Shown here piece after piece: positions 1,077 to 25,731 of a stretch of DNA of 64,000 bases. Under the pieces are notes generated by a model. It searched no databases. It saw only the letters and a list, made by a program, of their open reading frames with translations, and was not told the DNA's origin. This DNA is from Stieleria neptunia (GTDB lineage: Bacteria; Planctomycetota; Planctomycetia; Pirellulales; Pirellulaceae), in contig NZ_CP037423.1 in assembly GCF_007754155.1 (NCBI RefSeq), forward strand, positions 9,854,938-9,918,937. The letters are read 5' to 3'. Positions within the stretch are counted from its first letter, which is position 1; each line of letters opens with the position of its first letter. The translations under genes and the position numbers were made by a program.

Positions 1077-1166
1077 GACGAACGGCAGGCATCACCGAGA
1101 TCGCGCGATAGATCCGACACTTTGAAAACGCCGACTCGCGATCTTCGGTGGATGCCATGGTTATCG
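1077..1166 (-). other. attC site 1
   Basis: On the plus strand it runs from R' box GACGAAC to R'' box GTTATCG. The arm GGCATCACCGAGATCGCG pairs with the other arm, which carries two extra bases (C and A on the minus strand) on the side next to gene 1161-1538. The stop codon TAA of that gene lies within the R'' box. Confidence 0.8.
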
Positions 1167-1538
1167 CCTCTCGTCAATCCCTTCGGGCCACCAAGCGTCG
1201 GCAACTTCCGTCAGTTGAAGACGCCCGTCGGGATCGTGGGAAGTAACATACCATTTCGTCGCAATAAAAGCCATTTCACCTGCCCTCGCATCCTGGTGAC
1301 GGCTCAGCCAATCCGACTTGGATTTTGCGGCATGTTGTTGGATGTCGTAGCGTGCGTAGAACGAATCCATCGTCACGCTGTGTTTAGCGTGCATGAAATC
1401 AACAGCTGCTCGCGCGCACAAATCAATCGCTCGGCGTTCAGCATCCGTGACCCGATCGGAGCCGACCAAGGATTCGAGTATTGGGCCGATCTTGTCGAAG
1501 TCAAGTTCGTCTCGATCATCTTGCGAAAGCATTGGCAT
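1161..1538 (-). CDS. Cassette gene, hypothetical protein (125 aa)
   Basis: Starts MPMLSQDDRDELDFDKIGPI at 1538, shortly after the R' box GTTATCG (1566-1572 on plus), as expected for the first gene position of a cassette. It ends with TAA inside the R'' box CGATAAC of its own attC; the two boxes are exact complements. The protein is soluble, acidic and mostly helical in appearance (residues 10-70), with a C-terminal Trp-rich tail (WYVTSHDPDGRLQLTEVADA). No known family is recognised. Cassette genes of this size often lack close homologues. Confidence 0.6.
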   Translation of the reverse strand: MPMLSQDDRDELDFDKIGPILESLVGSDRVTDAERRAIDLCARAAVDFMHAKHSVTMDSFYARYDIQQHAAKSKSDWLSRHQDARAGEMAFIATKWYVTSHDPDGRLQLTEVADAWWPEGIDERR

Positions 1539-1566
1539 TGCCGCGAAAAATCGAATCTCTAATTGC

Positions 1567-1646
1567 GATAACGGCGGTGGTCACCGCGTCGGCGCGATGG
1601 ACCAGAACTCAAAAACAAACTCTACTCGCCGACTGCGGTGCACCGG
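1567..1646 (-). other. attC site 2 (R'' box deleted)
   Basis: It has R' box GATAAC and both inner arms (GTGGTCACCGCGTCGGCG and its partner with extra G and A). After CACC at 1641-1644 the sequence jumps to GGTCGG. In sister sites a stretch ending in GTTCACG follows here, so about 13 bp including R'' are missing. Confidence 0.7.
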
Positions 1647-2026
1647 TCGGCCACGACGACAGCCCGAGCCATCGCCGCTCTTTGTCAATGTACTCGATCG
1701 GAATCGTCGTGGGAAATCGAGTCACCCAATCAGCGGTCGGCACTTCAGGCGTCGGTTTGTCTTGGATCGTACTCGTACTCAGCATTGCGGTACTCGTGCT
1801 CGTACTCGATCGCCAGGCGTCGGTTTGCCTTCGCCGGCCGAGTCGACCGCGCACCTATCGAACCGTGACATCAAATGCGAAACCCAGGAAACGGAGGTTC
1901 GATGACATCCGGTGGGCGACCTTCGGGTCACGATCAAACGACGGCGAATCAATTGCCACAAAAGAACGCGAGAAGACGCGAAAGCAGAAGTGGGCGCTGT
2001 CGTCAGGCGTCGGTTAGCAGCGTGAA
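1572..2026 (-). repeat. Repeat cassette copy 1 (no convincing gene)
   Basis: About 455 bp delimited by R boxes. The body (1647-2021) is shared by about a dozen cassettes in this window. It contains two direct copies of CAGGCGTCGGTTTG flanking a GTACTC-rich stretch, and ends near the upstream R' with GGCGTCGGTTAGCAGCGTG. Short ORFs exist in several frames but differ between copies. This copy is probably immobile because its attC lacks R''. Confidence 0.75.
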
Positions 2027-2110
2027 CGGCGGTGGTCACCGCGTCGGCGCGATGGACCTAAACTCAAAAACAAACTCAACTCGCCGACTGCGGTGCACCA
2101 CATAGTTCAC
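2022..2110 (-). other. attC site 3
   Basis: R' GTGAAC and R'' GTTCAC are exact complements. The inner arms GTGGTCACCGCGTCGGCG and CGCCGACTGCGGTGCACCAC pair, leaving an extra C and T on plus (G and A on minus) unpaired. Confidence 0.8.
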
Positions 2111-2494
2111 GCGTCCGGCCACGACGACAGCCCGAGCCATTGCCGCTCTTTGCCAATGTACTCGATCGGAATCGCCGTGGGAAATCCAGTGTCCCAATCT
2201 GCGGTCGGCACTTCAGGCGTCGGTTTGTCTTGGATCGTACTCGTACTCAGCATTGCGGTACTCGTGCTCGTACTCGATCGACAGGCGTCGGTTTGCCTTC
2301 GCCGGCCGAGTCGACCGCGCACCTATCGAACGGTGACATCAAATGCGAATCCCAGGAAACAGAGGTTCGATGACATCCGGTGGGCGTCCTCCGGGGCACG
2401 ATCCAACGACGGCGAATCAATTGCCACAAAAGAACGCGAGAAGACGCGAAAGTAGAAGTGGGCGCTGTCGTCAGGCGTCGGTTAGCAGCGTGAA
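2027..2494 (-). repeat. Repeat cassette copy 2
   Basis: A 468 bp unit in tandem with copy 1 and nearly the same sequence, including the GTACTC-rich stretch between two CAGGCGTCGGTTTG motifs (2214-2296). It has an intact attC (2022-2110). No reading frame is kept across all copies. Confidence 0.75.
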
Positions 2495-2598
2495 CGTCTA
2501 CGTTCACCTGCTTAGCGGCGGCGAACGTTGGCGGGTGAGTGGGCTTGGTGGCACTTCGTTGCCCCTGATGCTAAGTCGGGTGCAACGTTTGGTTGAAC
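2490..2598 (-). other. attC site 4 (long type)
   Basis: About 109 bp from R' GTGAAC to R'' GTTGAAC. The arm ACGTTCACCTGCTTAGC pairs with GCTAAGTCGGGTGCAACGT on the other side, leaving extra C and T on plus unpaired. The centre is longer than in the common type. It belongs to the first IS91-like transposase cassette. Confidence 0.75.
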
Positions 2599-4023
2599 GG
2601 GCCTTGCGTTCGGCCCCGTCGTCGCGGGACCGGCTCGGCCATCGGTTTAGTACTTTACCAGTTCGATTGACCCCGAGCTGGGGTTTTAGGCGGTTGGCAG
2701 TGAAGAACACTCCGACCCGGGCGCGCACCTTCGGTAGCGTCGGTGGCACTTGCTGTCCGTTGTCAACTTCTCCAGCGGCCTCATGCGGCTTGCCCTCGTT
2801 TCTCTCGCCAGCCAAACGCTTCACTCGGTGGCCCACGGCCGGCCGCGAATTCGTGATGCGAGACTAACCGCTTGCCGCACACCGGACACGTGCAAGCATC
2901 AAGCATCCCGGCCGACTCGCACCACTCTTGCCAGCTCAACGGCTCTTCCGACTCCGGCGGTGCCACGCCGAGGGCACAGCGGGCCTCATCGATCCGACTG
3001 TGCTGGTTGCCGCTGTAGAGCCCGTAGCCGCGAACCGTCTGGAAACGACGCGGCGGAACGTGCAACAACCAGCGACCGAGGAATTGATCGATCGGCACTT
3101 CCGCCACCCCCTGACGCTTGCCGTCGCCTCCGTCCTGCGTCCCAATCCGATAGCGAAAGACGACCTTGTCGTCACGAATGCCCAGCAACCTTGAGTTGCC
3201 GATCGGGCCACCTTTGATGTACCGAGCCAGGTAGGTCGCCACTCCCGAACCGTCTCGGTAGGCGTCGAAACTCTTGACGTTCCACGGTTTGCCACTCAGC
3301 TTGGCCAACGTCCTCTTGAAGTCGTTGGGGCTGATCGAGTCAGGCAGTTTGATCTCACCCGATCGAACCTTTTGCTGGAGCATTGCCTTGAACTTGCCGC
3401 GAAACTTGATCATCAAGACTTTGCGGGGCAGCAAACAATTCTTCTGAGGGCGGAGCCACGTTCCGTCATCAGACAATCCGCCGGCGGTGACGATGCAATG
3501 CAAATGCACGTGCGGCATTAAGGTCTGGTTCCAAGTGTGCAGGGCGGCCAGGATTCCGGGCTTTGCACCGAGGTACTTGGGGTCGTCGAGTAGCTGGCAG
3601 AGCGTTTCCGTTGCCGCGGCGAACAAGGTGTTGGCGTACGCTGCTTTGTTGAAACGCCAAATCGGATTCAGTTCGCTCGGCAGGGTGAAGACGACGTGGT
3701 GATGCGGGCAGGGCAGGAGGCGTTGCTTCGATCTTGCCAGCCACTGTTCACGAGGCACCCAAGCACACTGGGGGCAGCAGCGATGCCGGCAGGAGTTGTA
3801 GGCGATGCTGTGATAATGACCGTCGGGACAACTGTTGACGTGCCCGCCGAGCGTTCGGGTACGGCAATGCTGGATGCACCATGCGGCGTGAAGCATGTCC
3901 CGCGAAACACGGAAACGCGCCGCGAACGAGTCGAAGTAGCCTGCGAAGATTTCTTGAAGCGTGATGGCCATTGGCACCTCGCAATCGATGTTGGCAGGTC
4001 ATCCCCCCGCAAGGCCAGTTCAA
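2495..4023 (-). mobile_element. IS91-like element carried as a cassette, copy 1
   Basis: A 1,529 bp unit running from the R' box GTTCAAC at 4018-4024 to attC site 4, whose R'' box is GTTGAAC (exact complement). It holds one transposase gene on the minus strand. It is diverged from the three other copies in this window and uses a different attC from copies 2 and 4. It can be read as an IS91-family element that targets the GTTC/GAAC core of attC, or as a true transposase cassette. Confidence 0.7.
2781..3977 (-). CDS. IS91-family HUH transposase, copy 1
   Basis: 398 residues, a normal length for the family. It catalyses single-strand, rolling-circle-type transposition through a 5'-phosphotyrosine intermediate. 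Visible parts are an N-terminal helical region (1-35), a zinc-binding region with C..GH and CRHRCCPQC (about 37-78), the HUH metal motif in HVHLHCIVTAGG (about 157-168), the YLARYIKGGPI segment with candidate nucleophile tyrosines (about 250-260), and a second CPVCGKRLVSHH zinc knuckle near the C-terminus. The frame is intact. It is about 85-90% similar by eye to the three other copies. The start MPMAITLQEIF at 3977 is 41 bp downstream of the R' box. Confidence 0.85.
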   Translation of the reverse strand: MPMAITLQEIFAGYFDSFAARFRVSRDMLHAAWCIQHCRTRTLGGHVNSCPDGHYHSIAYNSCRHRCCPQCAWVPREQWLARSKQRLLPCPHHHVVFTLPSELNPIWRFNKAAYANTLFAAATETLCQLLDDPKYLGAKPGILAALHTWNQTLMPHVHLHCIVTAGGLSDDGTWLRPQKNCLLPRKVLMIKFRGKFKAMLQQKVRSGEIKLPDSISPNDFKRTLAKLSGKPWNVKSFDAYRDGSGVATYLARYIKGGPIGNSRLLGIRDDKVVFRYRIGTQDGGDGKRQGVAEVPIDQFLGRWLLHVPPRRFQTVRGYGLYSGNQHSRIDEARCALGVAPPESEEPLSWQEWCESAGMLDACTCPVCGKRLVSHHEFAAGRGPPSEAFGWREKRGQAA

Positions 4024-4107
4024 CGGTACGGTTCAGCGGGGCCGCGCGAACGACTTACCACTTCAAAAACGCCAACTCGCGGCCTCCGTTGCAACCGATG
4101 GTTACCC
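4018..4107 (-). other. attC site 5
   Basis: R' GTTCAAC, R'' GTTACCC. The arm CGGTTCAGCGGGGCCGCG pairs with CGCGGCCTCCGTTGCAACCG, leaving extra C and T on plus unpaired. The TAA stop of gene 4102-4686 lies in R''. Confidence 0.8.
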
Positions 4108-4729: not shown

Positions 4730-4820
4730 GGGTAACGGCGGTGGTCACCGCGTCGGCGCGATGGACCTGATCTCAAAAACAAACTCAACTCGCCGACTGC
4801 GGTGCACCACTTGGTTCACG
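4730..4820 (-). other. attC site 6
   Basis: R' GGGTAAC, R'' GTTCACG; common-type arms GTGGTCACCGCGTCGGCG / CGCCGACTGCGGTGCACCAC with two unpaired extra bases. Confidence 0.8.
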
Positions 4821-5164
4821 CGGTCGGCCATGACGACAGCCCGAGCCATCGCCGCTCGCGGCCAATGTACTCGATCGGAATTGCCGTGGGAAATCGAGTA
4901 TCCCAATCAGCGGTCGGCACTTCAGGCGTCGGTTGTCAGCGTTGGCATCGACAGGCGTCGGTTTGTCTTCGTCGGCCGAGTCGACCGCGCACCTATCGAA
5001 CGATGACATCAAATGCGAATCCCAGGAAACGGAGGTTCGATGACATCCGGTGGGCGATCTTGGGGTCACGATCAAACGACAGCGAATCAATTGCCACAAA
5101 AGAACGCAAGAAGACGCAAAAGAAGAAGGGTGCGCTGTCGTCAGGCGTCGGTTAGCAGCGTGAA
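4736..5164 (-). repeat. Repeat cassette copy 3
   Basis: A 429 bp copy in which the GTACTC-rich stretch is replaced by GTTGTCAGCGTTGGCATCGA between the two GGCGTCGGTT motifs. The rest matches the other copies. Body 4821-5159, attC 4730-4820. Confidence 0.75.
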
Positions 5165-5249
5165 CGCTACGGATCACGCGGTCGCCGCGCGAGATCGTCC
5201 ACTTCAAAAACGACGACTCGGCGACTCGTCGTGCATCCGATGGTTATCC
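5160..5249 (-). other. attC site 7
   Basis: R' GTGAAC, R'' GTTATCC. The arms CGGATCACGCGGTCGCCG and CGGCGACTCGTCGTGCATCCG pair with three extra bases on the gene-proximal arm. Confidence 0.75.
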
Positions 5250-6033: not shown

Positions 6034-6124
6034 GGATAACGGCGGTGGTCACCGCGTCGGCGCGATGGACCTAAACTCAAAAACAAACTCAACTCGCCGA
6101 CTGCGGTGCACCACATAGTTCACG
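6034..6124 (-). other. attC site 8
   Basis: R' GGATAAC, R'' GTTCACG; common-type arms with two extra bases on the minus strand (G, A). Confidence 0.8.
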
Positions 6125-6510
6125 CGTCCGGCCACGACGACAGCCCGAGCCATCGCCGCTCTTTGTCAATGTACTCGATCGGAATCGCCGTGGGAAATCC
6201 AGTGTCCCAATCAGCGGTCGGCATTTCAGGCGCCGGTTTGTCTTGGATCGTACTCGTACTCAGCACCGCGGTACTCGTACTCCTACTCGAATCGACAGGC
6301 GTCGGTTTGTCTTGGTCGACCGCGCATCTATCGAACCGTGACATCAAATGCGAATCTTAGGAAACGGAGGTCCGATGACATCAGGTGGGCCGAGTTCAGC
6401 CACAACGTTCTGCAGCGTGGGCGACCGGCATTGGTCTGTTTGCCTTCCAGTCGAGTACGAGTAGGAGTACCGGCTGACGCCTGAGTACGAGTACGATTTG
6501 GGAGCGCGAA
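6040..6510 (-). repeat. Repeat cassette copy 4
   Basis: A 471 bp copy whose end near the upstream R' differs from copies 1-2. After GATGACATCAGGTGGGCC it carries an ACAACGTTCTGCAGCGTGGG stretch and a block of GAGTACGAGTA motifs (6454-6499). Its R' is CGCGAAC while its R'' is GTTCACG, one mismatch from full complementarity. The same end variant appears at 11,460-11,580 and 25,600-25,725. Confidence 0.7.
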
Positions 6511-6594
6511 CGGCGGGCATAACCGAGACGCGGCGAACGACTCACCACTTCAAAAACCTCGACTCCGCGTCTTCGGTTCATGCCATGGTTCGCC
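6505..6594 (-). other. attC site 9
   Basis: R' CGCGAAC, R'' GTTCGCC. The arm CATAACCGAGACGCGG pairs with CCGCGTCTTCGGTTCATG, with two unpaired bases. It begins 2 bp after the stop of gene 6596-7123. Confidence 0.85.
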
Positions 6595-6595
6595 T

Positions 6596-7135: not shown

Positions 7136-7225
7136 GGCGAACGGTAGGGTTCAGCGGGGCCGCGCGAACGACTCTCCACTTCAAAAACGTCAACTCGCGG
7201 CCTCCGTTGCAACCCATGGTTCGCC
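7136..7225 (-). other. attC site 10
   Basis: R' GGCGAAC and R'' GTTCGCC are exact complements. The arms GGGTTCAGCGGGGCCGCG and CGCGGCCTCCGTTGCAACCC leave G and A unpaired on minus. Confidence 0.85.
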
Positions 7226-7600: not shown

Positions 7601-7692
7601 GGCGAACGGTAGCCGTCACCGGGCACGGAGAGACGACTTTCCATTCGTGAAAACGCGCAAGCCGTGCTCCGTGTGCACGGCATTGTTCTGCC
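7601..7692 (-). other. attC site 11
   Basis: R' GGCGAAC, R'' GTTCTGC. The arms GCCGTCACCGGGCACGG and CCGTGCTCCGTGTGCACGGC pair with three extra bases on the gene-proximal arm. Confidence 0.8.
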
Positions 7693-8373: not shown

Positions 8374-8683
8374 GCGTCGGTCGGCACGCCGGTTTGGAAC
8401 GACTGTCGCGGCTTGCCAATGTACTCGATCAGAATCGCCATGGGGAATTCCAGCGTCCCAATCTCCAGTCGGGATGACAGGCGTCGGTTGTCAGCATTGA
8501 AATCGACAGGCGTCGGGTTGTCTTTGTCAGCCGAGTCGACCGCGCACCCGTCAAACCGCGACATCAAAAGCGAATCCCAGGAAACGGAGGTTCGATGACA
8601 TCAGGTGGGCCAACCTCGAGCGCACCAATCAGCAGCATGGACGACAGGCGTTGGTCGATCGCAGCCACGTCTACCGCCACGAA
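8251..8683 (-). repeat. Repeat cassette copy 5 (diverged, different attC)
   Basis: A 433 bp copy with a partial body (8395-8625 matches the family: CCAATGTACTCGATC, GGCGTCGGTTGTCAGC, GAGTCGACCGCGCACC). It is attached to the long attC site 12, and its R boxes are GTTCGTG/CACGAAC. The family body therefore exists with at least two unrelated attC sites. Confidence 0.65.
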
Positions 8684-8767
8684 CGGCGGACATAACCGAG
8701 CGGCGGCGAACGACTCACCACTTCAAAAACCTCGATTCCGCCGCTTCGGTTCATGTCATGGTTCTGC
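8678..8767 (-). other. attC site 13
   Basis: R' CACGAAC, R'' GTTCTGC. The arms GACATAACCGAGCGGCGG and CCGCCGCTTCGGTTCATGTC leave G and A unpaired on minus. The stop codon of gene 8751-9317 lies inside this site. Confidence 0.8.
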
Positions 8768-9342: not shown

Positions 9343-9433
9343 GCAGAACGGCGGTGGTCACCGCGTCGGCGCGATGGACCTGAACTCAAAAACAAACTCG
9401 ACTCGCCGACTGCGGTGCACCACTTGGTTCACG
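9343..9433 (-). other. attC site 14
   Basis: R' GCAGAAC, R'' GTTCACG; common-type arms with two unpaired extra bases. Confidence 0.8.
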
Positions 9434-9816
9434 CGTCCGGCCACGACGACAGCCCGAGCCATCGCCGCTCTTTGTCAATGTACTCGATCGGAATCGTCGT
9501 GGGAAATCGAGCGTCCCAATCAGCGGTCGGCACTTCAGGCGTCGGTCTGTCTTGAATCGTACTCGTACTCAGCATCGCGGTACTCGTGCTCGTACTCGAT
9601 CAACAGGCGCCGGTTTGTCTTCGTCGGTCGAGTCGACCGCGCACCTATCGAACCGTGACATCAAATGCGAATCCCGGGAAACAGAGGTCCGATGAAATCC
9701 GGTGGACGTCCTCCGGGTCACGATCAAACGACAGCAAATCAATTGCCACAAAAGAACGCGAGAAGACGCAAAAGAAGAAGTGGACGCTGTCACCAGGCGC
9801 CGGTTAGCAGCGTGAA
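9349..9816 (-). repeat. Repeat cassette copy 6
   Basis: A 468 bp full-length copy with the GTACTC-rich stretch at 9558-9600. It is in tandem with copy 7; R boxes GTTCACG/CGTGAAC match. Confidence 0.75.
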
Positions 9817-9901
9817 CGGCGGTGGTCACCGCGTCGGCGCGATCGACCGGAACTCAAAAACGAACTCAACTCGCCGACTGCGGTGCACCACTTGGTTCAC
9901 G
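9812..9901 (-). other. attC site 15
   Basis: R' GTGAAC, R'' GTTCACG; common-type arms, with two unpaired extra bases. Confidence 0.8.
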
Positions 9902-10284
9902 TGTCCGGCCACGACTTCAGCCCGAGCCATCGCCGCTCTTTGTCAATGTACTCGATCGGAATCGCCGTGGGAAATCCAGTGTCCCAATCTGCGGTCGGCA
10001 CTTCAGGCGTCGGCTTGTCTTGGATCGTACTCGTACTCAGCATTGCGGTACTCGTGCTCGTACTCGATCGACAGGCGTCGGTTTGCCTTCGCCGGCCGAG
10101 TCGACCGCGCACCTATCGAACCGTGACATCAAATGCGAAACCCAGGAAATTGAGGTCCGATGAATTCAGGTGGGCGACCTTCGAGTCACGATCAAACGAC
10201 AGCAAATCAATTGCCACAAAAGAACGCGAGAAGACGCAAAAGAAGAAGTGGCCGCTGTCGTCAGGCGTGGGTTACCAGCGTGAA
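9817..10284 (-). repeat. Repeat cassette copy 7
   Basis: A 468 bp full-length copy, same length as copy 6 and differing by scattered substitutions. The GTACTC-rich stretch is at 10,026-10,069. Confidence 0.75.
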
Positions 10285-10372
10285 CGGTAGAAATCACGGG
10301 GAACGGGCGAGAGACTTGCAAGCAGACGAGAAAACGGACCACCCGTTCTCCCGTGCATTTCATGGTTCTGTC
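10280..10372 (-). other. attC site 16
   Basis: R' GTGAAC, R'' GTTCTGTC. The arms AAATCACGGGGAACGGG and CCCGTTCTCCCGTGCATTT pair perfectly except for an extra G and A on minus. The stop of gene 10360-10866 lies within it. Confidence 0.85.
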
Positions 10373-10868: not shown

Positions 10869-10959
10869 ACAGAACGGCGGTGGTCACCGCGTCGGCGCGA
10901 TGGACCTAAACTCAAAAACAAACTCAACTCGCCGACTGCGGTGCACCACTTGGTTCGCG
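10869..10959 (-). other. attC site 17
   Basis: R' ACAGAAC, R'' GTTCGCG; common-type arms with two unpaired extra bases. Confidence 0.8.
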
Positions 10960-11588
10960 CGGTCGGCCGCGACGACAGCTTGAGCCATCGTCGCTCGCGG
11001 CCAATGTACCCGATCGGAATGGCCGTGGAAACTTTCACTCCCCTCGCTGAACCGATTTCTATGTGGAGTCGGGATGAAGCCCGGAGGGCTGGCACAATGC
11101 TTGCCGGTGGTGTCAGCCACCGGTATCGAAAGTACGAATTTGCTGAGGCCTGGAAGGCCGGCACAATGGGCCTCCCGGTCCACTCCAAACGCGGGCATTG
11201 TGTCGGCCCGCTGGGCCTTGAGCATTCCTTTGAATCCACCCCCGGTGGCTCACGCCACCGGCAGACACTCTACCGGCCCTCCGGGCCTAAGACACTTCGC
11301 TCTGCCGGCATACCCGAATCCAATCGTCGGAATCAGTGATGTCACGATCAACCGTTGAAATCGACAGGCGCCGGTTTGTCTTCGTCGGCCGAGTCGACCG
11401 CGCACCTATCGAACCGTGACATCAAATGCGAATCCCAGGAAACGGAGGTTCGATGACATCAGGTGGGCCGAGTTCAGTCACAACGTTCAGCAGCGTGGGC
11501 GTCCGGCATCGGTTTGTTTGCCTTCCAGTCGAGTACGAGTAGGAGTACCGGCTGACGCCTGAGTACGAGTACGATTTGGGAACGCGAA
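10875..11588 (-). repeat. Repeat cassette copy 8 with an inserted planctomycete repeat
   Basis: A composite cassette of 714 bp. Family sequence at 10,960-11,035 and 11,340-11,583 flanks about 300 bp of foreign intergenic repeat. That insert contains GCCGGTGGTGTCAGCCACCG (11,103-11,122), CCGGTGGCTCACGCCACCGG (11,242-11,261) and GGCCTGGAAGGCC-like palindromes. R boxes GTTCGCG/CGCGAAC match. No gene is visible. Confidence 0.6.
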
Positions 11589-12281: not shown

Positions 12282-12314
12282 TTCGGTAAGTGAAGAAAGA
12301 GTTCTGGCCTCTAG

Positions 12315-15685: not shown

Positions 15686-15770
15686 CGTTCGGATTCAGCG
15701 AGTGCGAGCAGTTGATTCTACGCGAGGTGAAACAGCCGATCGAGCACTTCGTTGCAATCCATGGTTCGTC
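15680..15770 (-). other. attC site 20
   Basis: R' GTTCAAC, R'' GTTCGTC. The arms GGATTCAGCGAGTGC and GCACTTCGTTGCAATCC leave G and A unpaired on minus. Confidence 0.8.
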
Positions 15771-16244: not shown

Positions 16245-16335
16245 GACGAACGGCAGCCGTCACCGAGGACGGACGATGGATTTTCCACTTCAACAACCGC
16301 GCAAGCCGTCCTTCGTGTGCACGGCATGGTTACGT
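16245..16335 (-). other. attC site 21
   Basis: R' GACGAAC, R'' GTTACGTC. The arms GCCGTCACCGAGGACGG and CCGTCCTTCGTGTGCACGGC pair with three extra bases on the gene-proximal arm. The TAA stop of gene 16330-16824 is in R''. Confidence 0.8.
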
Positions 16336-17381: not shown

Positions 17382-18712
17382 TAGGACCGCCGGAACAATT
17401 AGTGTCGGTTAATTGGCGAGAATCGATAGTTCCATCTCGGTATTTGTTCGTCAAAAACTGTACGCAGAGCTGCTTTCATTGTTGCGGTCGCGTTCTCACC
17501 CGTCTCGTACAACCCTCGCAAGACGTTGACCGTAGTGCGAAGGCCGGTCCGAGTCGATGTGTTCCGCATCAACTTGACAACTGTTTCCAACTTATCGAAA
17601 AGCATCCCGGAGCAAGCACGTCCAAGATGCGGAAAAAAACGGCGTTCAATCGGATTGTATTTTGAACAGTAGCTTGGATAGTGGGCTACCCGAATTTCGA
17701 TGCCGATCGTGTCGACCAACTTTTGAAGGTAGTGCTTGAAGATGTATTTTGAAGCTGAGTTGCTACCGCCGCAATCGCACAATAGCAAAATGGAATTGGT
17801 ATCCGGATAACAACGTTTCCCTATCCGGTTCCAGTACCATTTGAGGCTATCGGTCGCGAAGCGACTCGTCTCGTGAGAGAGTCCAATGTTGACGTGCCCA
17901 GCATTTCGTCCGATGTCGTAGATTCCGTGAGGAATCACAACGCCATCAGCCCAACTCGGAAAGTCGTGGTCGAACGCTTCAATGGGCTCTGTGGTGCGAA
18001 TGCGACCGGCCCGGTAAAGACGGCCCAGGAATTCTTTGCTTTTTGTGTCGATCGAAAAGACCGGATTGCCGGCAGCCTGATAGCTCTCCACATGTCCTGC
18101 GATGAGATCAAACTGCTGCTCGCGATCCGCTGACAAGCCACCGGAAATAGTTTTGATCATTTTTCGAAAACCGATCTTCAAGCTATTCAGCCAAGCGGAG
18201 ACCGTCTTGTCGCTCACAGGGGTGCCGGCCTCGGCCGCCTTCTCAGCCATTTCAGTGGAGGCCAGGTTTGTGTAAACCACGTCGGGCTCATCAGGATCGC
18301 CTCCAACACGAACGCTCAATAGTTCGTTCAGATTGTCTTCGAGGTCGGGATCGGTTTCGATCTTTTTTTTCGTCCAGCACCTGGCCGCCGTATCCTACCT
18401 TTCGCCGGATCATTGGAGAGTTGATCGAGCTCAGCGATACCTCGTTCGATGGTGCGAGTCGAGCAGCCCAGTAATTGACTGATGTACGGTACACCTCCTC
18501 GCCCGAGACGCTGTGCCTCGACAGCCGCGAACCGACGGCGATCCTTTTCGGACAAGGTTGAATAAAAATCGACTGCTCGCTTGGCAGCCAGATCGTCAAG
18601 CTGATTTTCGAATACAAACGCCATCCTTGGCACCCTCGCTGGTGGATTGAGACGCGGAAAGTCTACCCCATCCAGCGAAAACCCGCGACACTAATTGTTC
18701 CGGCGGTCCTAA
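17382..18712 (-). mobile_element. ISAzo13-like insertion sequence with 27 bp perfect inverted repeats
   Basis: The ends TTAGGACCGCCGGAACAATT (17,381-17,400, continuing AGTGTCG) and the inverse (ending GTTCCGGCGGTCCTAA at 18,712) match over 27 bp. A TA dinucleotide may be duplicated at the insertion point. It carries one transposase in two overlapping frames. It interrupts the IS91-type transposase after QPNQL. Confidence 0.85.
17399..18633 (-). CDS. ISAzo13-family transposase, expressed through a -1 frameshift
   Basis: Frame 1 (18,633-18,328) starts MPRMAFVFENQLDDLAAKRA and holds the N-terminal helix-turn-helix part (SQLLGCSTRTIERGIAELDQ). Frame 2 (to 17,399) holds the catalytic domain: 'VFSIDTKSKEFLGRLYRAGR', 'HDFPSWADGVVIPHGIYDI', 'LLLCDCGGSNSASKY' and 'PSYCSKYNPIERRFFPHLGR' are the family's DDE-type blocks. 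The frames join by a -1 slip on a run of eight A (T8 at 18,363-18,370 on plus), giving RKKKIETDPDLEDNLNELLS and about 411 residues. It could be programmed frameshifting or a decay mutation; the perfect slippery run and clean continuation favour the former. Confidence 0.75.
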
Positions 18713-19687
18713 GCTGATTGGGCTGGATGTGCAAGCACCAGCGGCAAATGAACTCCGCTGTCGAAAGAGTCAACGGAACTTGAATCGACTCACCACCCGT
18801 CGTGTATCCTTCACGTGCCCAGAACGTTACCTCCTGGTCATCGGCCGCGATGATTCGATGGTCGCTGATCGGCCCACCGGTCAGATAACGCGTCAAGTAA
18901 CGAACCACATGCTCTCCACTACTGCTTTCGGTCGGCGGGGGCTCGATGTAGCTGACCCATTCCTTCGATTCAATCTGATCGATCATCGTGTCCCAGGCTT
19001 CATCACAGCGCAGGTACTCAACTGAGCCGTCAAGTTGAAGTTTGCCGTTCTTGCGAAGACGCTGCAGGTGAGCCACCGCGATTTTGCGAAACGACCGCCG
19101 GAGATTGATCGCATCGACAAGGTACTTGCGATCGTCGTCGTATCCTGCGGCCGCCGGAGCCTTTGATTCCGTCCAGCTCCCATCGACCAAGCTCGGTCCT
19201 GCACCGGGGACCAACGCGTGGACGTGCCAGTGAGCATCCAGCTTCTGGTTCCAGGTGTGAAGGACCATCAAGGCGGCCAGTTCGTATTGCTGTTCGGTTT
19301 CGACTGTCTTCTTGAGAGCTTTCCAAGCCGAGTGAAACAGCAACTCGGCGATCTCTTCGCGGTTCGCCAACGCCATCGTCGAGATCACGTCCGGCAACGT
19401 GAAGACGACTTGGTAGTAGTCCACACCGTCAAGGATCAGCTTCGAAGCACGATCCGAAAACGTCTGTCGTTTTCCTCCGCTGCATTGCGGGCAGTGACGA
19501 TCACCACACGAGTTGTGTCGTTTCGTAAGCCGATCACAATCATCACACTGGTACCAACGACCACCAAGTGCAGACGTACGACACAGAGTCGTTTTGGCCA
19601 AGACACTTTGGACCGTCATCGTCGCTGCACCGTCGCGGTGCTCGTTGACGTAACGTTCGGCACCGCGACGAAGGAGTTGGTGGACGG

Positions 19688-20605
19688 TTAGCTTTTCTTG
19701 TCTGAATCGTCCTGTTCGCCGTTCTCCTGCGGCGGCGTGTACGTCGGAAGTTGCTTGACCGGCAACCAGTCCAGTGGGCTCGGGACACTGTGCAGGTGCT
19801 CCCGGCGGCAATGCAGATAAACCATCGTCGTGATGAAGCTGGCGTGGCCGAGCAGCTTGCTGATCGTCAACAAGTCCACCCCGGCTTCGAGAAGTCCTGT
19901 CGCGTAGGAGTGCCTCAGGACATGCGGATAAATCCTGCGTTTGATCCCCGCTTTCACTCCGGCGTCCTTCATCGCTTTGCGAATCGTGGTGTCGGCGTAG
20001 GGCTTCCCCGGTTTCTTGCCTGGAAACAGGAAGTCGGTCGGCTTGTACTTGAGCCAGTAGAGCCTGAGCTCTTTCAAGAGTCTCGGTGAGAGTGGCACCA
20101 ACCGTTCCTTGTTGCCCTTGCCGTTGGCGACTCGGATCATCATCCGCTTGGAGTCGATGTCGTGGATCCTCAAGTTGGCCGCTTCGGAGAATCGAAGCCC
20201 TGCGGAGTAGAGCGTCATCAGAAAGGTTCGGTGTTTCAGATTGGCCGTGCATTGAATCAGCTGGTCGACTTCTTGTCGGCCGAGCACGGTAGGCAGCTTC
20301 TTGGGCCGTTTGCCGAAGGGCACCATCGTGACCGGCCAGGGCATGGGCTGGGTGTGGCGATAGTAAAACCGTAAAGCACAAACGGCTTGGTTGAACGAAC
20401 CGTAGGCAAGCTTTCGTTCTTGGATCAAATGGAGCTGGAAGGTTCTAACGTCTTCGCAGGTTGCCTGGCCGAGCGGTTTTTCGATAAAGTCGGCGAATTT
20501 GCGAACGTGGTAGGTATAGGCGTCGATGGTTGCTTCGGCCATGTTGCGGATCAACATGTCTTCGGCAAGTCGTTTGGTGAGCTTGCAAGTTCGTTTTTTG
20601 TGTGA
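19688..20605 (-). CDS. Tyrosine recombinase of the IS91-type composite element
   Basis: 305 residues from ATG 20,605 (MSHKKRTCKLTKRLAEDMLI); the longer frame to 20,764 adds a Cys-rich tail without family likeness. N-terminal SAM-like core-binding domain (about 15-100), catalytic domain with Arg in LYSAGLRFSEAANLRIHDID, HVLRHSYATGLLEAG (HxxR), LGHASFITTMVYLH (His and nucleophile Tyr). Cuts and rejoins DNA via a 3'-phosphotyrosine. It lacks the extra helix insertion between motif boxes that marks integron integrases, so it is not IntI but a XerC/D-like partner of the IS91 transposase. Its stop overlaps the transposase frame, implying translational coupling. Confidence 0.85.
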   Translation of the reverse strand, partial: SHKKRTCKLTKRLAEDMLIRNMAEATIDAYTYHVRKFADFIEKPLGQATCEDVRTFQLHLIQERKLAYGSFNQAVCALRFYYRHTQPMPWPVTMVPFGKRPKKLPTVLGRQEVDQLIQCTANLKHRTFLMTLYSAGLRFSEAANLRIHDIDSKRMMIRVANGKGNKERLVPLSPRLLKELRLYWLKYKPTDFLFPGKKPGKPYADTTIRKAMKDAGVKAGIKRRIYPHVLRHSYATGLLEAGVDLLTISKLLGHASFITTMVYLHCRREHLHSVPSPLDWLPVKQLPTYTPPQENGEQDDSDKKS

Positions 20606-20883
20606 CATCACGGTTGCTTGTCCTTGTTGTGAAACAGAGTTCAAAAGAAGTTCGTGCCGCAGCGTGCGGGGAACACAACAAGGGTGCGTCAACGAGCAAA
20701 AAGCGCAAGTTAAAACGTCAGGCAAAGCACCAAGAAAGAGACAGTAAGAACGCCTAGCGCGCACAACTGGCTAACCGAAAAAGCGCCTACAGGCGCGCCG
20801 AAAGACAGACACGTTGTGACCCTCACACACTCACCGCACCGACAAAAGAAAACAGTCGCGCCAATGAAGTCGCTGCCGATTAA
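20606..20883. other. Upstream region of the recombinase-IS91 element, no gene seen
   Basis: 278 bp between the recombinase start and attC site 22. It contains direct AAGTTC/GTTCAAAAG motifs and GCGCGCC palindromes but no ORF with family likeness. It probably holds the element's promoter and its upstream (ter) end. Confidence 0.4.
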
Positions 20884-20993
20884 GTTCAACGTCTACGTTC
20901 ACCGAGTTAGCGGCGGTAAACGCTGGCGGGTGAGTGGGCTGATTGGCACTTCGTTGCCCCTGATGCTAAGTTCGGTGCAACGTTTGGTTGAAC
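20884..20993 (-). other. attC site 22 (long type)
   Basis: 110 bp, R' GTTCAAC and R'' GTTGAAC. The arms ACGTTCACCGAGTTAGC and GCTAAGTTCGGTGCAACGT leave C and T (plus) unpaired. It is homologous to attC site 4. Confidence 0.8.
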
Positions 20994-22419
20994 GAGGCCT
21001 TCGTTCGGCCCCGATGTCGTGGGACCGGCTCGACCGATGTTTAGGAGTTTACCCGATCGAACGACCCGTCGTGAGGGATTCTAGCAGCTGTCCCCAACGA
21101 ATGGATCTCATCGGGCGCGCACCTTCGGTACCGTCGGTGGCAATGGCTGTCCCTTGTGAAATTCTCCAGCGGCATCATGCGGCTTGCCCTTGTTTCTCAC
21201 GCCAAGAATACGCATCAGAGGGAGGATCCCGCCCGGCGGAAAATTCGTGATGCGAGACCAACCGTTTACCACACACCGGACACGTGCAAGCATCAAGAAG
21301 CCCGGCCGACTCGCACCATTGTTGCCAAGTCAACTGTTCAAGCGAGTCGGACTCTGGCGGCTCCACGCCGAGCGCGGCACGGGCCTCATCGAGCTGGGAG
21401 TATTGGTTGCCGCTGTACAGACCGTAGCCGCGAACCGTCTGAAATCGCCGCGGCGGCACGTGCTCCAGCCAGCGGCCGAGAAACTGATCGATCGGCAACG
21501 CGGTCACCCCCTGACGTTTCCCGTCCCCACCGTCCTGCGTTCCAATCCGATAGCGAAACACGACCTTGTCATCTTGAACGTCCAGTAACCGTGACTTGCC
21601 GATCGGGCCGCCCTTGATGTACCGAGCCAAATAGGTCGCCACACCGGAGCCATCACGATAGGCGTCAAATATCTTGACGTTCCACGGTTTGCCGCTGAGC
21701 TTGGCCAACAGCTTCTGAAAGTCGGATGCGCTCATCGAGTCGGGCAATTGGATCTTGCCTGATTGAACCTTCTGCTGAAGCATCGCCTTGAATTTGCCGC
21801 GGAACTTGAGCATCAACACTTTGCGGGGCAGCAAACAATCTTTTTGGGGACGGCGCCACGTCCCATCACCAGCCAGCCCGCCGGCGGTGACGATGCAATG
21901 CAAGTGCACGTGCGGCAACAGGGTCTGGTTCCAGGTGTGCAGCGCCGCCAGGATCCCAGGCTTCGCACCGAGGTACTTGGGGTCCTTGAGCAGTTGCTGG
22001 AGTGTTTCCTTCGCGGCGTTGAAGAGGGTCTCGGCATAGGCAGCCTTGTTGAACCGCCAGATTCGATTCAGTTCGCTCGGGAGTGTGAAGACGATGTGAT
22101 GATGCGGGCAGGGCAGCAAGCGTTGCTTACATTTGGCCAGCCACTGCTCTCGGGCCACCCAGGCGCACTGGGGGCAGCACCGATGCCGACAGGAGTTGTA
22201 GGCGATGCTGTGGTAGTGACCTTCGGGGCAACTGTTGACGTGCCCACCGAGCGTCCGAGTGCGACAGTGTTGGATGCACCATGCGGCGCGAAGCATCTCC
22301 CGCGAGACGTGAAAACGCGAGGCGAAGGAGTCGAAATAGCGTCCGAAAATCTGTTGAAGCGTGATGGCCATCGGCACCTCGCAATCAATGTTTGCAGCTC
22401 AACCCGAAGGCCAGTTCAA
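20890..22419 (-). mobile_element. IS91-like element carried as a cassette, copy 3
   Basis: 1,530 bp, bounded by GTTCAAC at 22,414 and attC site 22. The transposase part matches copies 2 and 4, but the match ends at TGGTTGAACGAGGCC where the attC begins. The same element is therefore joined to a different attC here. It lies head-to-tail with copy 4. Confidence 0.75.
21175..22377 (-). CDS. IS91-family HUH transposase, copy 3
   Basis: 400 residues, intact frame from ATG 22377. The zinc, HUH and tyrosine motifs are all present as in the other copies. It carries KLSGKPWN where copies 2 and 4 have KLSDKPWN, so it descends from a slightly different parent copy. It lies 797 bp from the start of attC site 22's flank and directly upstream cassette-wise of the recombinase-IS91 element. 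Confidence 0.88.
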   Translation of the reverse strand: MPMAITLQQIFGRYFDSFASRFHVSREMLRAAWCIQHCRTRTLGGHVNSCPEGHYHSIAYNSCRHRCCPQCAWVAREQWLAKCKQRLLPCPHHHIVFTLPSELNRIWRFNKAAYAETLFNAAKETLQQLLKDPKYLGAKPGILAALHTWNQTLLPHVHLHCIVTAGGLAGDGTWRRPQKDCLLPRKVLMLKFRGKFKAMLQQKVQSGKIQLPDSMSASDFQKLLAKLSGKPWNVKIFDAYRDGSGVATYLARYIKGGPIGKSRLLDVQDDKVVFRYRIGTQDGGDGKRQGVTALPIDQFLGRWLEHVPPRRFQTVRGYGLYSGNQYSQLDEARAALGVEPPESDSLEQLTWQQWCESAGLLDACTCPVCGKRLVSHHEFSAGRDPPSDAYSWREKQGQAA

Positions 22420-22504
22420 CGTTTAAAATCACCCGGTCGCGACGAGAGATTCTCCAATGTCAAAACGCCCGACTTCGCGACTCGGGTGCATTTTTTGGTT
22501 GAAC
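22414..22504 (-). other. attC site 23
   Basis: R' GTTCAAC, R'' GTTGAAC (exact complements). The body is the same as attC site 19: arms TCACCCGGTCGCGA and TCGCGACTCGGGTGCA with two unpaired bases. Confidence 0.85.
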
Positions 22505-23930
22505 GAGGCCTTCGTTCGGCCCCGATGTCGTGGGACCGGCTCGACCGATGTTTAGGAGTTTACCCGATCGAACGACCCGTCGTGGGGGATTCTCGCAGCT
22601 GTCCCCAACGAATGGACCTCATCGGGCGCGCACCTTCGGTACCGTCGGTGGCAATGGCTGTCCCTTGTGAAATTCTCCAGCGGCATCATGCGGCTTGCCC
22701 TTGTTTCTCACGCCAAGAATACGCATCAGAGGGAGGATCCCGCCCGGCGGAAAATTCGTGATGCGAGACCAACCGTTTACCACACACCGGACACGTGCAA
22801 GCATCAAGCAGCCCGGCCGACTCGCACCATTGTTGCCAAGTCAACTGTTCAAGCGAGTCGGACTCTGGCGGCTCCACGCCGAGCGCGGCACGGGCCTCAT
22901 CGAGCTGGGAGTATTGGTTGCCGCTGTACAGACCGTAGCCGCGGACCGTCTGAAATCGCCGCGGCGGCACGTGCTCCAGCCAGCGGCCGAGAAACTGATC
23001 GATCGGCAACGCGGTCACCCCCTGACGTTTCCCGTCCCCACCGTCCTGCGTTCCAATCCGATAGCGAAACACGACCTTGTCATCTTGAACGTCCAGTAAC
23101 CGTGACTTGCCGATCGGGCCGCCCTTGATGTACCGAGCCAAATAGGTCGCCACACCGGAGCCATCACGATAGGCGTCAAATATTTTGACGTTCCACGGTT
23201 TGTCGCTGAGCTTGGCCAACAGCTTCTGAAAGTCGGACGCGCTCATCGAGTCGGGCAATTGGATCTTGCCTGATTGAACCTTCTGCTGAAGCATCGCCTT
23301 GAATTTGCCGCGGAACTTGAGCATCAACACTTTGCGGGGCAGCAAACAATCTTTTTGGGGACGGCGCCACGTCCCATCACCAGCCAGCCCGCCGGCGGTG
23401 ACGATGCAATGCAAGTGCACGTGCGGCAACAGGGTCTGGTTCCAGGTGTGCAGCGCCGCCAGGATCCCAGGCTTCGCACCGAGGTACTTGGGGTCCTTGA
23501 GCAGTTGCTGGAGTGTTTCCTTCGCGGCGTTGAAGAGGGTCTCTGCATAGGCAGCCTTGTTGAACCGCCAGATTCGATTCAGTTCGCTCGGGAGTGTGAA
23601 GACGATGTGATGATGCGGGCAGGGCAGCAAGCGTTGCTTACATTTGGCCAGCCACTGCTCTCGGGCCACCCAGGCGCACTGGGGGCAGCACCGATGCCGA
23701 CAGGAGTTGTAGGCGATGCTGTGGTAGTGACCTTCGGGGCAACTGTTGACGTGCCCACCGAGCGTCCGAGTGCGACAGTGTTGGATGCACCATGCGGCGC
23801 GAAGCATCTCCCGCGAGACGTGAAAACGCGAGGCGAAGGAGTCGAAATAGCGTCCGAAAATCTGTTGAAGCGTGATGGCCATCGGCACCTCGCAATCAAT
23901 GTTTGCAGCTCAACCCGAAGGCCAGTTCAA
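22420..23930 (-). mobile_element. IS91-like element carried as a cassette, copy 4
   Basis: 1,511 bp; same as copy 2 (14,175-15,685) throughout, including attC. In tandem with copy 3. It ends at R' GTTCAAC (23,925-23,931), directly followed by a repeat cassette. Confidence 0.75.
22686..23888 (-). CDS. IS91-family HUH transposase, copy 4
   Basis: 400 residues starting MPMAITLQQIFGRYF at 23888, intact, with the same protein sequence as copy 2 as far as can be read. It has the HUH motif HVHLHCIVTAGG, zinc region CRHRCCPQC and YLARYIKGGPI. Plus-strand ORFs of up to 384 codons across this gene are shadows. Confidence 0.88.
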   Translation of the reverse strand: MPMAITLQQIFGRYFDSFASRFHVSREMLRAAWCIQHCRTRTLGGHVNSCPEGHYHSIAYNSCRHRCCPQCAWVAREQWLAKCKQRLLPCPHHHIVFTLPSELNRIWRFNKAAYAETLFNAAKETLQQLLKDPKYLGAKPGILAALHTWNQTLLPHVHLHCIVTAGGLAGDGTWRRPQKDCLLPRKVLMLKFRGKFKAMLQQKVQSGKIQLPDSMSASDFQKLLAKLSDKPWNVKIFDAYRDGSGVATYLARYIKGGPIGKSRLLDVQDDKVVFRYRIGTQDGGDGKRQGVTALPIDQFLGRWLEHVPPRRFQTVRGYGLYSGNQYSQLDEARAALGVEPPESDSLEQLTWQQWCESAGLLDACTCPVCGKRLVSHHEFSAGRDPPSDAYSWREKQGQAA

Positions 23931-24015
23931 CGGCGGTGGTCACCGCGTCGGCGCGATGGACCTAAACTCAAAAACAAACTCAACTCGCCGACTGCGGTGC
24001 ACCACATAGTTCACG
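23925..24015 (-). other. attC site 24
   Basis: R' GTTCAAC, R'' GTTCACG; common-type arms with two unpaired extra bases. Confidence 0.8.
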
Positions 24016-24398
24016 CGTCCGGCCACGACGACAGCCCGAGCCATTGCCGCTGTTTGCCAATGTACTCGATCGGAATCGCCGTGGGAAATCCAGTGTCCCA
24101 ATCTGCGGTCGGCACTTCAGGCGTCGGCTTGTCTTGGATCGTACTCGTACTCAGCATTGCGGTACTCGTGCTCGTACTCAATCGACAGGCGTCGGTTTGC
24201 CTTCGCCGGCCGAGTCGACCGCGCACCTATCGAACCGTGACATCAAATGCGAAACCCAGGAAACGGAGGTTCGATGACATCCGGTGGGCGACCTTCGAGT
24301 CACGATCAAACGACAGCAAATCAATTGCCACAAAAGAACGCGAGAAGACGCAAAAGAAGAAGTGGCCGCTGTCGTCAGGCGTGGGTTACCAGCGTGAA
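23931..24398 (-). repeat. Repeat cassette copy 9
   Basis: A 468 bp full-length copy, closest in sequence to copy 7 (both carry TCAGGCGTGGGTTACCAGCG near the upstream R'). Confidence 0.75.
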
Positions 24399-24483
24399 CG
24401 GCGGTGGTCACCGCGTCGGCGCGAATGACCTGATCTGAAAAACAAACTCAATTCGCCGACTGCGGTGCACCACTTGGTTCACG
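24394..24483 (-). other. attC site 25
   Basis: R' GTGAAC, R'' GTTCACG; common-type arms. It has two substitutions in the loop (GCGAATGACCTGATCTG) and keeps both unpaired bases. Confidence 0.8.
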
Positions 24484-24828
24484 CGGTCGGCCACGACGAC
24501 GGCATGTGCCATCGCCGCTCGCTGCCAATGTACTCGATCGGAATCGCCAAGGGAAATTCAGTATCCCAATCAGCGGTCGGCACTTCAGGCGTTGGTTACC
24601 TGCGTTGGAATCAACAGGCGTCGGTCTGTCTTCCTCGGCCGAGTCGACCGCGTACCTATCGAACCGTGACATCAAATGCGAATTCCAGGAAACAGAGGTT
24701 CGATGAGATCAAGAGGGCGCACTTCGAGCGCACCAATCAAACCGTGTGTGAATGAGCAACCACAGAGGTCGCAGAGGGACACAGAGAAGAAGTGGGCGCT
24801 GTCGTCAGGCGTCGGCTAGCAGCGTGAA
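24399..24828 (-). repeat. Repeat cassette copy 10 with inserted CACAGAG element
   Basis: A 430 bp copy in which the AACGACAGCAAATC/AAAGAACGCGAG part is replaced by AACCACAGAGGTCGCAGAGG and ACACAGAG (24,759-24,785). This is a short motif found between genes in many bacteria, including planctomycetes. The rest matches the family. Confidence 0.65.
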
Positions 24829-24913
24829 CGTCGGTGGTCACCGCGTCGGCGCGATGGACCTAAACTCAAAGACAAACTCAACTCGCCGACTGCGGTGCAC
24901 CACATAGTTCACG
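24824..24913 (-). other. attC site 26
   Basis: R' GTGAAC, R'' GTTCACG; common-type arms with two unpaired bases. Confidence 0.8.
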
Positions 24914-25257
24914 CGTCCGGCCACGACGACAGCCCGAGCCATTGCCGCTCTTTGTCAATGTACTCGATCGGAATCGCCGTGGGAAATCCGGTGTCCCAAT
25001 CTGCGGTCGGCACTTCAGGCGTCGGTTGTCAGCGTGGGCATCGACAGGCGTCGGTTTGTCTTCTTCGGCCGAGTCGACCGCGCACCCATCGAACGATGGC
25101 ATCAAATGCGAATCCCAGGAAACAGAGGTTCGACGAATTCCGGTGGGCGAACTTCGGGTCACGATCAAACGACAGCAAATCAATTGCCACAAAAGAACGC
25201 GAGAAGACGCAAAAGAAGAAGTGGGCGCTGTCGTCAGGCGTCGGCTAGCAGCGTGAA
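24829..25257 (-). repeat. Repeat cassette copy 11
   Basis: A 429 bp copy of the short variant (GTTGTCAGCGTGGGCATCGA in place of the GTACTC stretch), closest to copy 3. Confidence 0.75.
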
Positions 25258-25345
25258 CGTCCACCGTTCACCGCGGCACGGCGAACGACATTGGGTTTTC
25301 GGTTGACGTCGACTCCGTGCCTGCGTGTGCAACGGATGGTTCGCG
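25253..25345 (-). other. attC site 27 (first site at the high-coordinate end)
   Basis: R' GTGAAC, R'' GTTCGCG. The arms CCGTTCACCGCGGCACGG and CCGTGCCTGCGTGTGCAACGG pair with extra bases on the gene-proximal arm. It belongs to the outermost cassette. Confidence 0.75.
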
Positions 25346-25731
25346 CGTCCGGCCACGACGACAGCCCGTGCCATCGCCGCTGACGGCCAATGTACTCGAT
25401 CGGAATCGCCGCGGGAAATTCGGTGTCCCAATCAGCGGTCGGCATTTCAGGCGCCGGTTTGTCTTGGATCGTACTCGTACTCAGCATCGCGGTACTCGTA
25501 CTCCTACTCGAATCGACAGGCGTCGGTTTGTCTTGGTCGACCGCGCATCTATCGAACCGTGACATCAAATGCGAATCTTAGGAAATGGAGGTCCGATGAC
25601 ATCAGGTGGGCCGAGTTCAGTCACAACGTTCAGCAGCGTGGGCGACCGGCATCGGTTTGTTTGCCTTCCAGTCGAGTACGAGTAGGAGTACCGGCTGACG
25701 CCTGAGTACGAGTACGATTTGGGAGCGCGAA
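25258..25731 (-). repeat. Repeat cassette copy 12 (outermost cassette)
   Basis: A 474 bp copy with both the GTACTC-rich stretch and the GAGTACGAGTA end variant of copy 4. Its R boxes GTTCGCG (25,339) and CGCGAAC (25,726-25,732) match. Beyond it the family sequence stops. Confidence 0.7.

Follow-up and report, generated by a model that had tools for sequence, protein, structure and literature searches.

An integron is normally described as one integrase and one adjoining attI site. Chromosomal integrons, clusters of attC sites lacking an integron integrase (CALINs), the mobilisation of CALINs in trans and the loss of intI are already known (PMC9024848, PMC2426708, PMC12444791, PMC11023631; all papers are cited here for the excerpts consulted). 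The sedentary chromosomal integron is described as one stable platform that holds intI, attI and the promoter Pc together (PMC11023631), and CALINs can be mobilised by a functional IntI encoded elsewhere (PMC12444791). The DNA analysed here (the window, 64,000 nucleotides) lies at 9.855-9.919 Mb of the 10.98-Mb single-contig chromosome of Stieleria neptunia (a Stieleria-type genome of the family Pirellulaceae, labelled G000), and carries a large array of attC sites that is headed by a predicted orphan attI. A genome that combines a single integrase with many attI-promoter platforms appears to be new: the open-licence literature, to which the search was confined, yielded no account of an integrase with more than one attI and none of integrons in Stieleria, subscription papers and preprints being outside its scope. 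The most satisfactory account, which is considered fairly likely, is a distributed integron in which one IntI serves several attI-promoter platforms in trans.

The attC array of the window

A covariance-model scan detected 26 attC sites at window 1,077-25,345, all in one orientation; the strand folded in every site corresponded to the plus strand of the window, and the array genes were located on the minus strand (Table 1). The model (R1) was trained on 17 window sites after these had been located, folded, and aligned, and it picked up the nine window sites outside its training set, which served as an in-window control. No R1 match at E ≤ 1 with default filters was obtained in the remaining ~38 kb of the window, and Rfam at the gathering threshold gave no match in the window. 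A hand-made scan for boxes and arms passed only 4 of the 26 sites at its cut-off, and the covariance model was used instead.

The 17 aligned sites shared outer AAC/GTT boxes and an 18-pair stem, and 98.9% of the 357 cells of the alignment were paired. Their covariation score was 0.695, compared with 0.131 ± 0.023 in shuffled alignments, and none of 500 shuffles equalled it. Both-sided changes were present in 15 of the 21 stem pairs, a number attained by 1 of 500 shuffles, and the covariation signal was destroyed when the partner column was slid by 1-3 positions. On the 3' arm of the plus strand, the extra bases of the sites bulged out at columns 73 and 81; column 77 was a further position in some sites. 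Such bulges typically mark the bottom strand of attC, the one that recombines. The sites at 2,493 and 20,888 were longer (102 bp each) and low-scoring. Single small genes of the same orientation, each followed by an attC, filled the array, and beyond the left edge of the window the cluster continued with 15 further attC, reaching G000:C1:9,839,185, for 41 attC over 41.1 kb in full.

These results confirm that the sites are attC and that window 1,077-25,345 is an integron gene-cassette array. The first-pass annotation, which was made from the letters alone, had proposed a planctomycete cassette array of about 27 attC, and the covariance scan, together with the covariation of 17 sites, bore this out for 26 of them; the last site that it counted, at 25,730, is of the attI type. 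Its AAC/GTT-boxed palindromes between minus-strand genes were recovered at these 26 sites, of which the one at 1,570 has lost its GTT box, and the two or three extra bases that it saw on the gene-proximal arm are the bulges described above. The array also extends to the left beyond the window.

An orphan attI at the head of the array

No resemblance to attC was seen in the palindrome at ~25,730, the reverse complement of which matched the DNA between intI and the first cassette of the intI locus. When window 25,728-25,835 was used as a query against the whole genome, five places were retrieved, namely, the window itself and sites at 7.28, 9.19, 9.04 (beside intI), and 2.53 Mb; the intI-linked attI was G000:C1:9,038,225-9,038,338. 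These five strong copies aligned over a module of ~115 bp (alpha type), which contained, in order, a -35-like TTGAn, 17 bp, a -10-like TAnnAT, GGGTGGyrGGAGATATTCC, an inverted repeat, and rATAATyAATnG|TT. Their outer flanks were unrelated to one another, and past G|TT the cassettes differed, except for a first cassette shared by the 9.04- and 2.53-Mb copies. The head of the window array ends at the crossover directly before the first cassette, as is expected of attI. Judging from its homology to the site beside the only intact intI, the last site of the window is classified as an orphan attI. As the first-pass annotation had taken it for the 27th attC, the array's own attI and its promoter motif were missed there.

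The motif TTGAn-17-TAnnAT was read by eye in all five strong copies of G000, and a looser -35/-10 pattern that allowed spacers of 15-19 bp was present in 17 of 19 full-length attI rows, with a spacer of 17 bp in all 17. The boxes suggest a putative promoter Pc that reads into the window array. A sequence model built from the alpha module (R2) added two weaker attI copies, at 88,375 and 2,714,685, each of which headed an attC cluster. The 2.71-Mb copy belonged with four heads in another genome of the genus (G121) to a second family (beta), and a third family (gamma) headed the arrays at 1.22, 1.43, and 8.20 Mb. All ten attI of G000 were positioned on the correct side of an attC cluster.

That the 115-bp module is a promoter or leader element and not an attI appears highly unlikely. 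It does hold a promoter-like motif and an inverted repeat, but at the intI locus it sits between intI and the first cassette, the examined copies head attC arrays, and nearly all copies end at the G|TT where differing cassettes begin (this is broken in 2 of 32, G120_7.34 and G125_103).

Each attI type had its own dyad pair, as read by eye: GGTCsGACC in alpha, GCAGTCsGACTGC in beta, and CTTATC...GATAAG in gamma. These pairs are possibly accessory sites of the integrase, and the two 9-bp elements of the window attI (Table 1) are candidate accessory sites for the integrase or a regulator. An RNA hairpin formed by the attI inverted repeat was considered but not supported, with both-sided changes in only 2 of 22 pairs and several broken pairs.

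One intact integrase in the genome

TIGR02249 gave one match above its cut-off (265 bits) in the 10.98-Mb contig, at 9,036,714-9,037,652, with 380.1 bits and with model positions 2-315 covered in one stretch. This intact integrase, alpha IntI, is 453 amino acids long, and its gene is about 843 kb from the window attI. Neither the window nor the DNA adjoining its attI contained intI, which agrees with the first-pass annotation; both of the checks that it had proposed, an attC covariance scan and a search of the genome for intI, were positive, the scan strongly so and the IntI well above the cut-off. With two or more attC and no intI nearby, the window array corresponds to a CALIN, and it lacks the intI beside attI that defines an integron platform. 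The next-best TIGR02249 match (109.9 bits) was a recombinase encoded by an IS91-associated element that has one copy inside the window; the recombinase aligned to the model in two pieces and omitted positions 177-238, which we take to be the IntI-specific insert. N-terminal pieces of a gamma-type IntI were detected beside two gamma arrays of G000, and no intI remnant was detected beside its alpha orphans within the fetched flanks.

IntI was widespread, with 63 of 119 family genomes above the TIGR02249 cut-off. Matches to the integrase reached 99% in Stieleria sedimenti ICT_E10.1 and Rhodopirellula sp. SM50, and 81% in CP036432.1 (TBK1r). The intI-attI region (G000:C1:9036714-9038338) was 98.6% identical to that of G124, a genome of the same genus, compared with 91% for the flank of an orphan attI that the two genomes share; a recent move or recombination event may have carried the intI region between species. 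In another genome of the genus, G128, six intI matches exceeded the cut-off and seemed, from the lengths of their reading frames, to be of two kinds; R2 matched no attI there, an arrangement opposite to that of G000.

Cassette arrays across the chromosome and exchange between them

G000 contained 288 attC in 13 clusters, of which ten were headed by recognisable attI of the three types and one had intI. The intI-linked cluster was the largest (59 attC), and no attI was recognised at the small clusters at 6.52, 9.66, and 10.44 Mb. The 288 sites were kept from 299 model matches; the 11 dropped scored 16.3-26.7 bits, and three kept scored below 30 bits (29.8, 27, and 20.8), the bottom line having been drawn by eye and inconsistently. 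The R1 search of the genome scored the best 150 of 5,288 candidates, and further weak or isolated attC may exist outside the fetched stretches. Between the sites, 282 cassettes were cut (median 569.5 bp), with the cuts falling 2-3 bases off the exact crossover.

Cassettes that were at least 98% identical over at least 95% of their length were regarded as shared. There were 36 shared pairs in 15 groups, and 31 pairs were between different arrays; in 30 of these 31, the downstream 60-bp flanks were at most 40% identical. A 1,512-bp transposase cassette was first at both the intI-linked attI and the 2.53-Mb orphan attI, with 100% identity (upstream 60 bp, 75%), and the first cassette of the window (474 bp) was 100% identical to two cassettes within the intI array. 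In the alpha orphan arrays, shared cassettes were nearer to the head (mean relative rank 0.375, n = 19, permutation p = 0.02).

Turnover at orphan attI was also evident between genomes. In the orthologous pair G124_104/G125_60, the alignment broke at the attI G|TT and resumed at the next G|TT, and a 465-bp cassette ending in a 97-bit attC was present in G125 only; a single cassette was thereby gained or lost exactly at the crossover of an orphan attI. Two orthologous orphan attI of G121 and G122 had similar flanks and sites (97.7% and 110/113 for G121_3.58/G122_210; 92.1% and 109/113 for G121_9.78/G122_242), and in neither pair did the next 1.5 kb match. For G000_9.19/G124_4, the flank was 91.2% identical and the attI 107/114, with only 182 bp comparable downstream. 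The orphan platforms look used.

Related genomes and origin of the window platform

Genomes G036, G111, G120, G121, G122, G124, G125, and G128 belong to the same genus as G000. Of 14 genomes of the genus, six gave no R2 match; G036 had one attI, and G000, G111, G120, G121, G122, G124, and G125 had several. Over 241 family genomes (E ≤ 1e-5, stricter filters), eight matched, all but one of them from this genus, so that the alpha attI is essentially restricted to it. Each of the 15 attI-model matches of G120 and G121 had attC following it in the correct orientation. G121 gave no alpha intI; its only intI match at E ≤ 1e-40 was of another type and 42% identical. The median attC score in G121 was 41.6 bits in alpha arrays versus 73.7 bits in the intI-linked gamma array, and its alpha attI headed only short, decayed arrays.

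Remnants of intI were present beside the orphans G120_9.12, G121_1.46, G121_4.46b, G121_8.74b, and G124_368, in a search that used midpoint-cut flanks for G111, G036, G122, G124, and G125 and in which attI was misplaced in loci truncated by contig ends. G121_1.46 and G124_368 also shared flanks with the intact intI locus of G120. These remnants and shared flanks indicate that intI was lost from complete integrons.

The regions that flank the window array were 0.1-1.6 kb apart in G120, G121, G122, and G125, with no attC match between them; a flanking gene was also present in G124. Among the five genomes compared, a block of ~44.5 kb was specific to G000, which comprised the array, older array-like DNA at its left end, the attI, and ~200 bp beyond the promoter. 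The window platform may have come in whole, or it may have grown around a small seed that bore an attI, and the HUH transposase genes that it carries as cassettes hint, speculatively, at one-ended rolling-circle mobilisation. An empty site in four relatives would also be expected if the array had been seeded by off-target insertion of a cassette at a chromosomal attG-type site without any attI, and insertion at attG is discussed in PMC12444791. The ~115-bp homology of the array head to the intI-linked attI, however, far exceeds the short attG consensus; attG seeding is rejected on account of this homology and is the least probable of the explanations considered.

A distributed integron or decayed integrons

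In a distributed integron, one chromosomal alpha IntI would act on several attI-Pc platforms, each heading its own array. The enzyme would excise cassettes from different arrays at folded attC and insert them both at the attI beside its own gene and at orphan sites of the alpha type, including window 25,727-25,841, where they would be expressible from the local promoter. The orphan platforms would be of mixed origin: some would be former complete integrons minus intI, and that of the window would have appeared at its locus as, or grown within, a block free of intI. Action of IntI in trans, activity of the promoters, and the order of events are what we infer from the computed homologies, motifs, and shared cassettes; on this basis, a single intact recombinase probably stocks several cassette libraries from a distance.

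The main alternative is ordinary decay, whereby orphan arrays are CALINs of integrons that lost intI, their attI and promoters are relics, and cassettes are now either immobile or mobile only through attC x attC excision. CALINs have been proposed to be degraded integrons (PMC9024848) and intI pseudogenes are common (PMC2426708), and the intI remnants beside five orphans of G120, G121, and G124 and beside two gamma arrays of G000 are what decay predicts. Decay fits less well with the cassettes of 100% identity at the heads of two arrays and of the window array, the one-cassette difference exactly at an orphan attI, promoter boxes that recur at 17 bp while their spacers differ, large alpha orphan arrays where alpha IntI exists, and the lack of any intI remnant beside the alpha orphans of G000 within the flanks that were fetched. 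Decay is considered rather unlikely.

Several observations weigh against the distributed integron. In 8 of the 10 orthologous orphan pairs, attI had a lower identity than the outer flank (for example, 70 vs. 86%, 73 vs. 87%, and 82 vs. 94%; one pair differed by less than 1 point), and in 2 a higher one, as decay would also predict; this comparison, in which the flanks include coding DNA, gives no sign of strong constraint on attI, and many orphan attI appear to be drifting. Among shared cassettes, 11 of the 31 pairs between arrays had upstream 60-bp flanks, made up of the preceding attC or attI, with an identity of 70% or more, and the pair 9.04_12/9.84_12 had similar flanks on both sides, so that other kinds of recombination are possible for some pairs. 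The head bias of the alpha orphan arrays is modest, and it was absent in the gamma arrays (0.519, n = 8, p = 0.57) and in the intI array (0.445, n = 12, p = 0.24). G125 has a second intI of another type, so that either enzyme may lie behind the G124/G125 difference, and the turnover at alpha attI of G121 and G122, where no alpha intI was detected (G122 being a draft), requires another integrase, a recent loss, or deletion. The beta arrays of G121, where an intact beta intI was not found, had healthy attC with a median of 70 bits, and the degraded, nearly full intI beside one of them allows recent loss but is not proof of it. Array size, with reservations, speaks for the distributed integron: alpha orphan arrays held 3-41 attC in G000 and 4-17 in G120, both of which have alpha intI, and 2-4 in G121; their median was 12.5 attC in the two alpha-intI genomes (10 arrays) versus 3 in G121 (5 arrays, p = 0.004), a test that covers three genomes, contains ties and lower-bound counts from fetched stretches, treats the non-independent arrays of a genome separately, and leaves out L139 with its truncated intI.

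A wider form of the distributed integron is offered more tentatively, at somewhat less than an even chance. In this form, several platforms of Stieleria would be stocked in trans with several first cassettes expressed at once, and integrase-free attI-array blocks, such as the ~44.5-kb block of the window, would move to new sites, perhaps with the help of HUH transposases.

Cassette content and other features of the window

Outside an open reading frame (ORF)-poor family, 200 of 215 cassettes contained a top-strand ORF of at least 80 amino acids. The ORF-poor family accounted for 67 of the 282 cassettes, in eight arrays, most commonly at 468 bp (23 copies) and 429 bp (7), with conserved blocks and a median longest ORF of 71 amino acids. 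It was present at window 1570-11586 and 23929-25729, supplied the first cassette at two array heads of G000, and had matches in arrays of related species. A structured RNA was considered for this cassette but is not convincing; the alifold z was about -4 on both strands, yet no more than 6 of 39 pairs on one strand and 3 of 35 on the other had both-sided changes.

Copies of the IS91-type Y2 transposase at 21175-22377 and 22686-23888 were near-identical to that at 14441-15643, and the copy at 2781-3977 was 85% identical; two of these four window copies were covered by the PF04986/PF14319 scan. Eight close copies were present in the genome, every one inside a cassette between attC or attI sites, and these cassettes carried two attC forms, of 83 and 102 bp. 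The second IS91-type transposase and its XerC-like tyrosine recombinase were also found in six cassettes of four other arrays, and outside arrays at 0.399 and 10.32 Mb. A comparison of 10 cassette proteins with PADLOC for defence genes gave one weak match (E 0.0025). With regard to the orientation of the arrays relative to replication, the stretches that were fetched showed a weak GC skew, and two genes resembling DnaA were far apart.

Near the array, a giant ORF of 7,830 codons occupied window 31165-54657 on the plus strand. A dispersed repeat of ~120 bp, at window ~27301-27420, had many copies in G000, G124, and G125, and among the matches listed none was from other members of the genus.

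Table 1. Features of the window, with positions counted from its first letter.
Feature	Position	Strand	Score or evidence
attC, first after attI	25256..25341	+ (folded bottom strand)	70.3 bits
attC	24827..24909	+	87.7 bits
attC	24397..24479	+	90.1 bits
attC	23929..24011	+	87.3 bits
attC	22418..22500	+	79.5 bits
attC, long form	20888..20989	+	37.5 bits
attC	16249..16331	+	82.8 bits
attC	15684..15766	+	66.4 bits
attC	14173..14255	+	82 bits
attC	11587..11667	+	76.5 bits
attC	10873..10955	+	87.3 bits
attC	10283..10367	+	77.6 bits
attC	9815..9897	+	86 bits
attC	9347..9429	+	88.9 bits
attC	8682..8763	+	93.6 bits
attC	7605..7687	+	76.9 bits
attC	7140..7221	+	100.5 bits
attC	6509..6590	+	96.5 bits
attC	6038..6120	+	87.3 bits
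attC	5163..5245	+	82.5 bits
attC	4734..4816	+	87.8 bits
attC	4022..4103	+	93.3 bits
attC, long form	2493..2594	+	40.3 bits
attC	2025..2107	+	90.2 bits
attC remnant, GTT box lost	1570..1648	+	58 bits
attC, leftmost in window, 15 more beyond to the left	1081..1162	+	90.4 bits
Predicted orphan attI module, alpha type, array head	25727..25841	-	homology to intI-linked attI and three more strong copies
attI crossover G|TT	between 25732 and 25731	-	
Putative promoter Pc into the array: -35 TTGACC (25838-25833), 17-bp spacer, -10 TACCAT (25815-25810)	25810..25838	-	sequence
Two 9-bp elements, GGTCCGACT (25747-25755) and GGTCGGACC (25779-25787), in imperfect long inverted repeat	25747..25787	.	sequence, alignment
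IS91-type Y2 (HUH) transposase as cassette gene	14441..15643	-	PF04986 and PF14319
Type member of the ORF-poor cassette family	9347..9814	-	
DDE transposase element (527 amino acids, DDE_Tnp_1_4) inserted in array	12313..14163	-	limits by eye
ISAzo13-type element inserted in 4.6-kb cassette	17393..18712	-	PF07592; limits by eye
Second IS91-type transposase frame (18663-20381, ~30% identical) and non-IntI tyrosine recombinase (19688-20764)	18663..20764	-	

Comparison with known integron systems

If the orphan attI-Pc platforms work in trans, some CALINs that are now classed as degraded may be active platforms of cassette expression. IntegronFinder 2.0 detects no attI outside class 1, according to the excerpts of PMC9024848; attI-headed orphan arrays would therefore be reported as plain CALINs, and common annotation is blind to the distinction between live and degraded ones. 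The genome also raises a directly testable question, namely, whether an integrase chooses among several attI in one cell, and the paralogous attI sets (three types, many copies, several species) are a source from which the determinants of attI recognition could be read.

Like the Vibrio-type sedentary chromosomal integron, the system of G000 has attI, Pc motifs, and long one-way arrays with attC, but it combines one intact intI with ten attI-headed arrays across the chromosome. The orphan arrays resemble CALINs in being attC arrays without a nearby intI, and differ from them in retaining attI and a promoter motif. The CALINs of Xanthomonas that are located away from ilvD are likewise dispersed clusters at the same places across species, and no attI is described for them in the excerpts of PMC12444791; in contrast, the arrays described here come with attI and a promoter motif, and orthologous sites carry different cassettes. 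Finally, the delta-attI cassettes of mobile integrons also carry attI-derived sequence (PMC12901181, excerpts), but there the sites are described as part of single unusual resistance cassettes, whereas in G000 whole attI-promoter modules head arrays.

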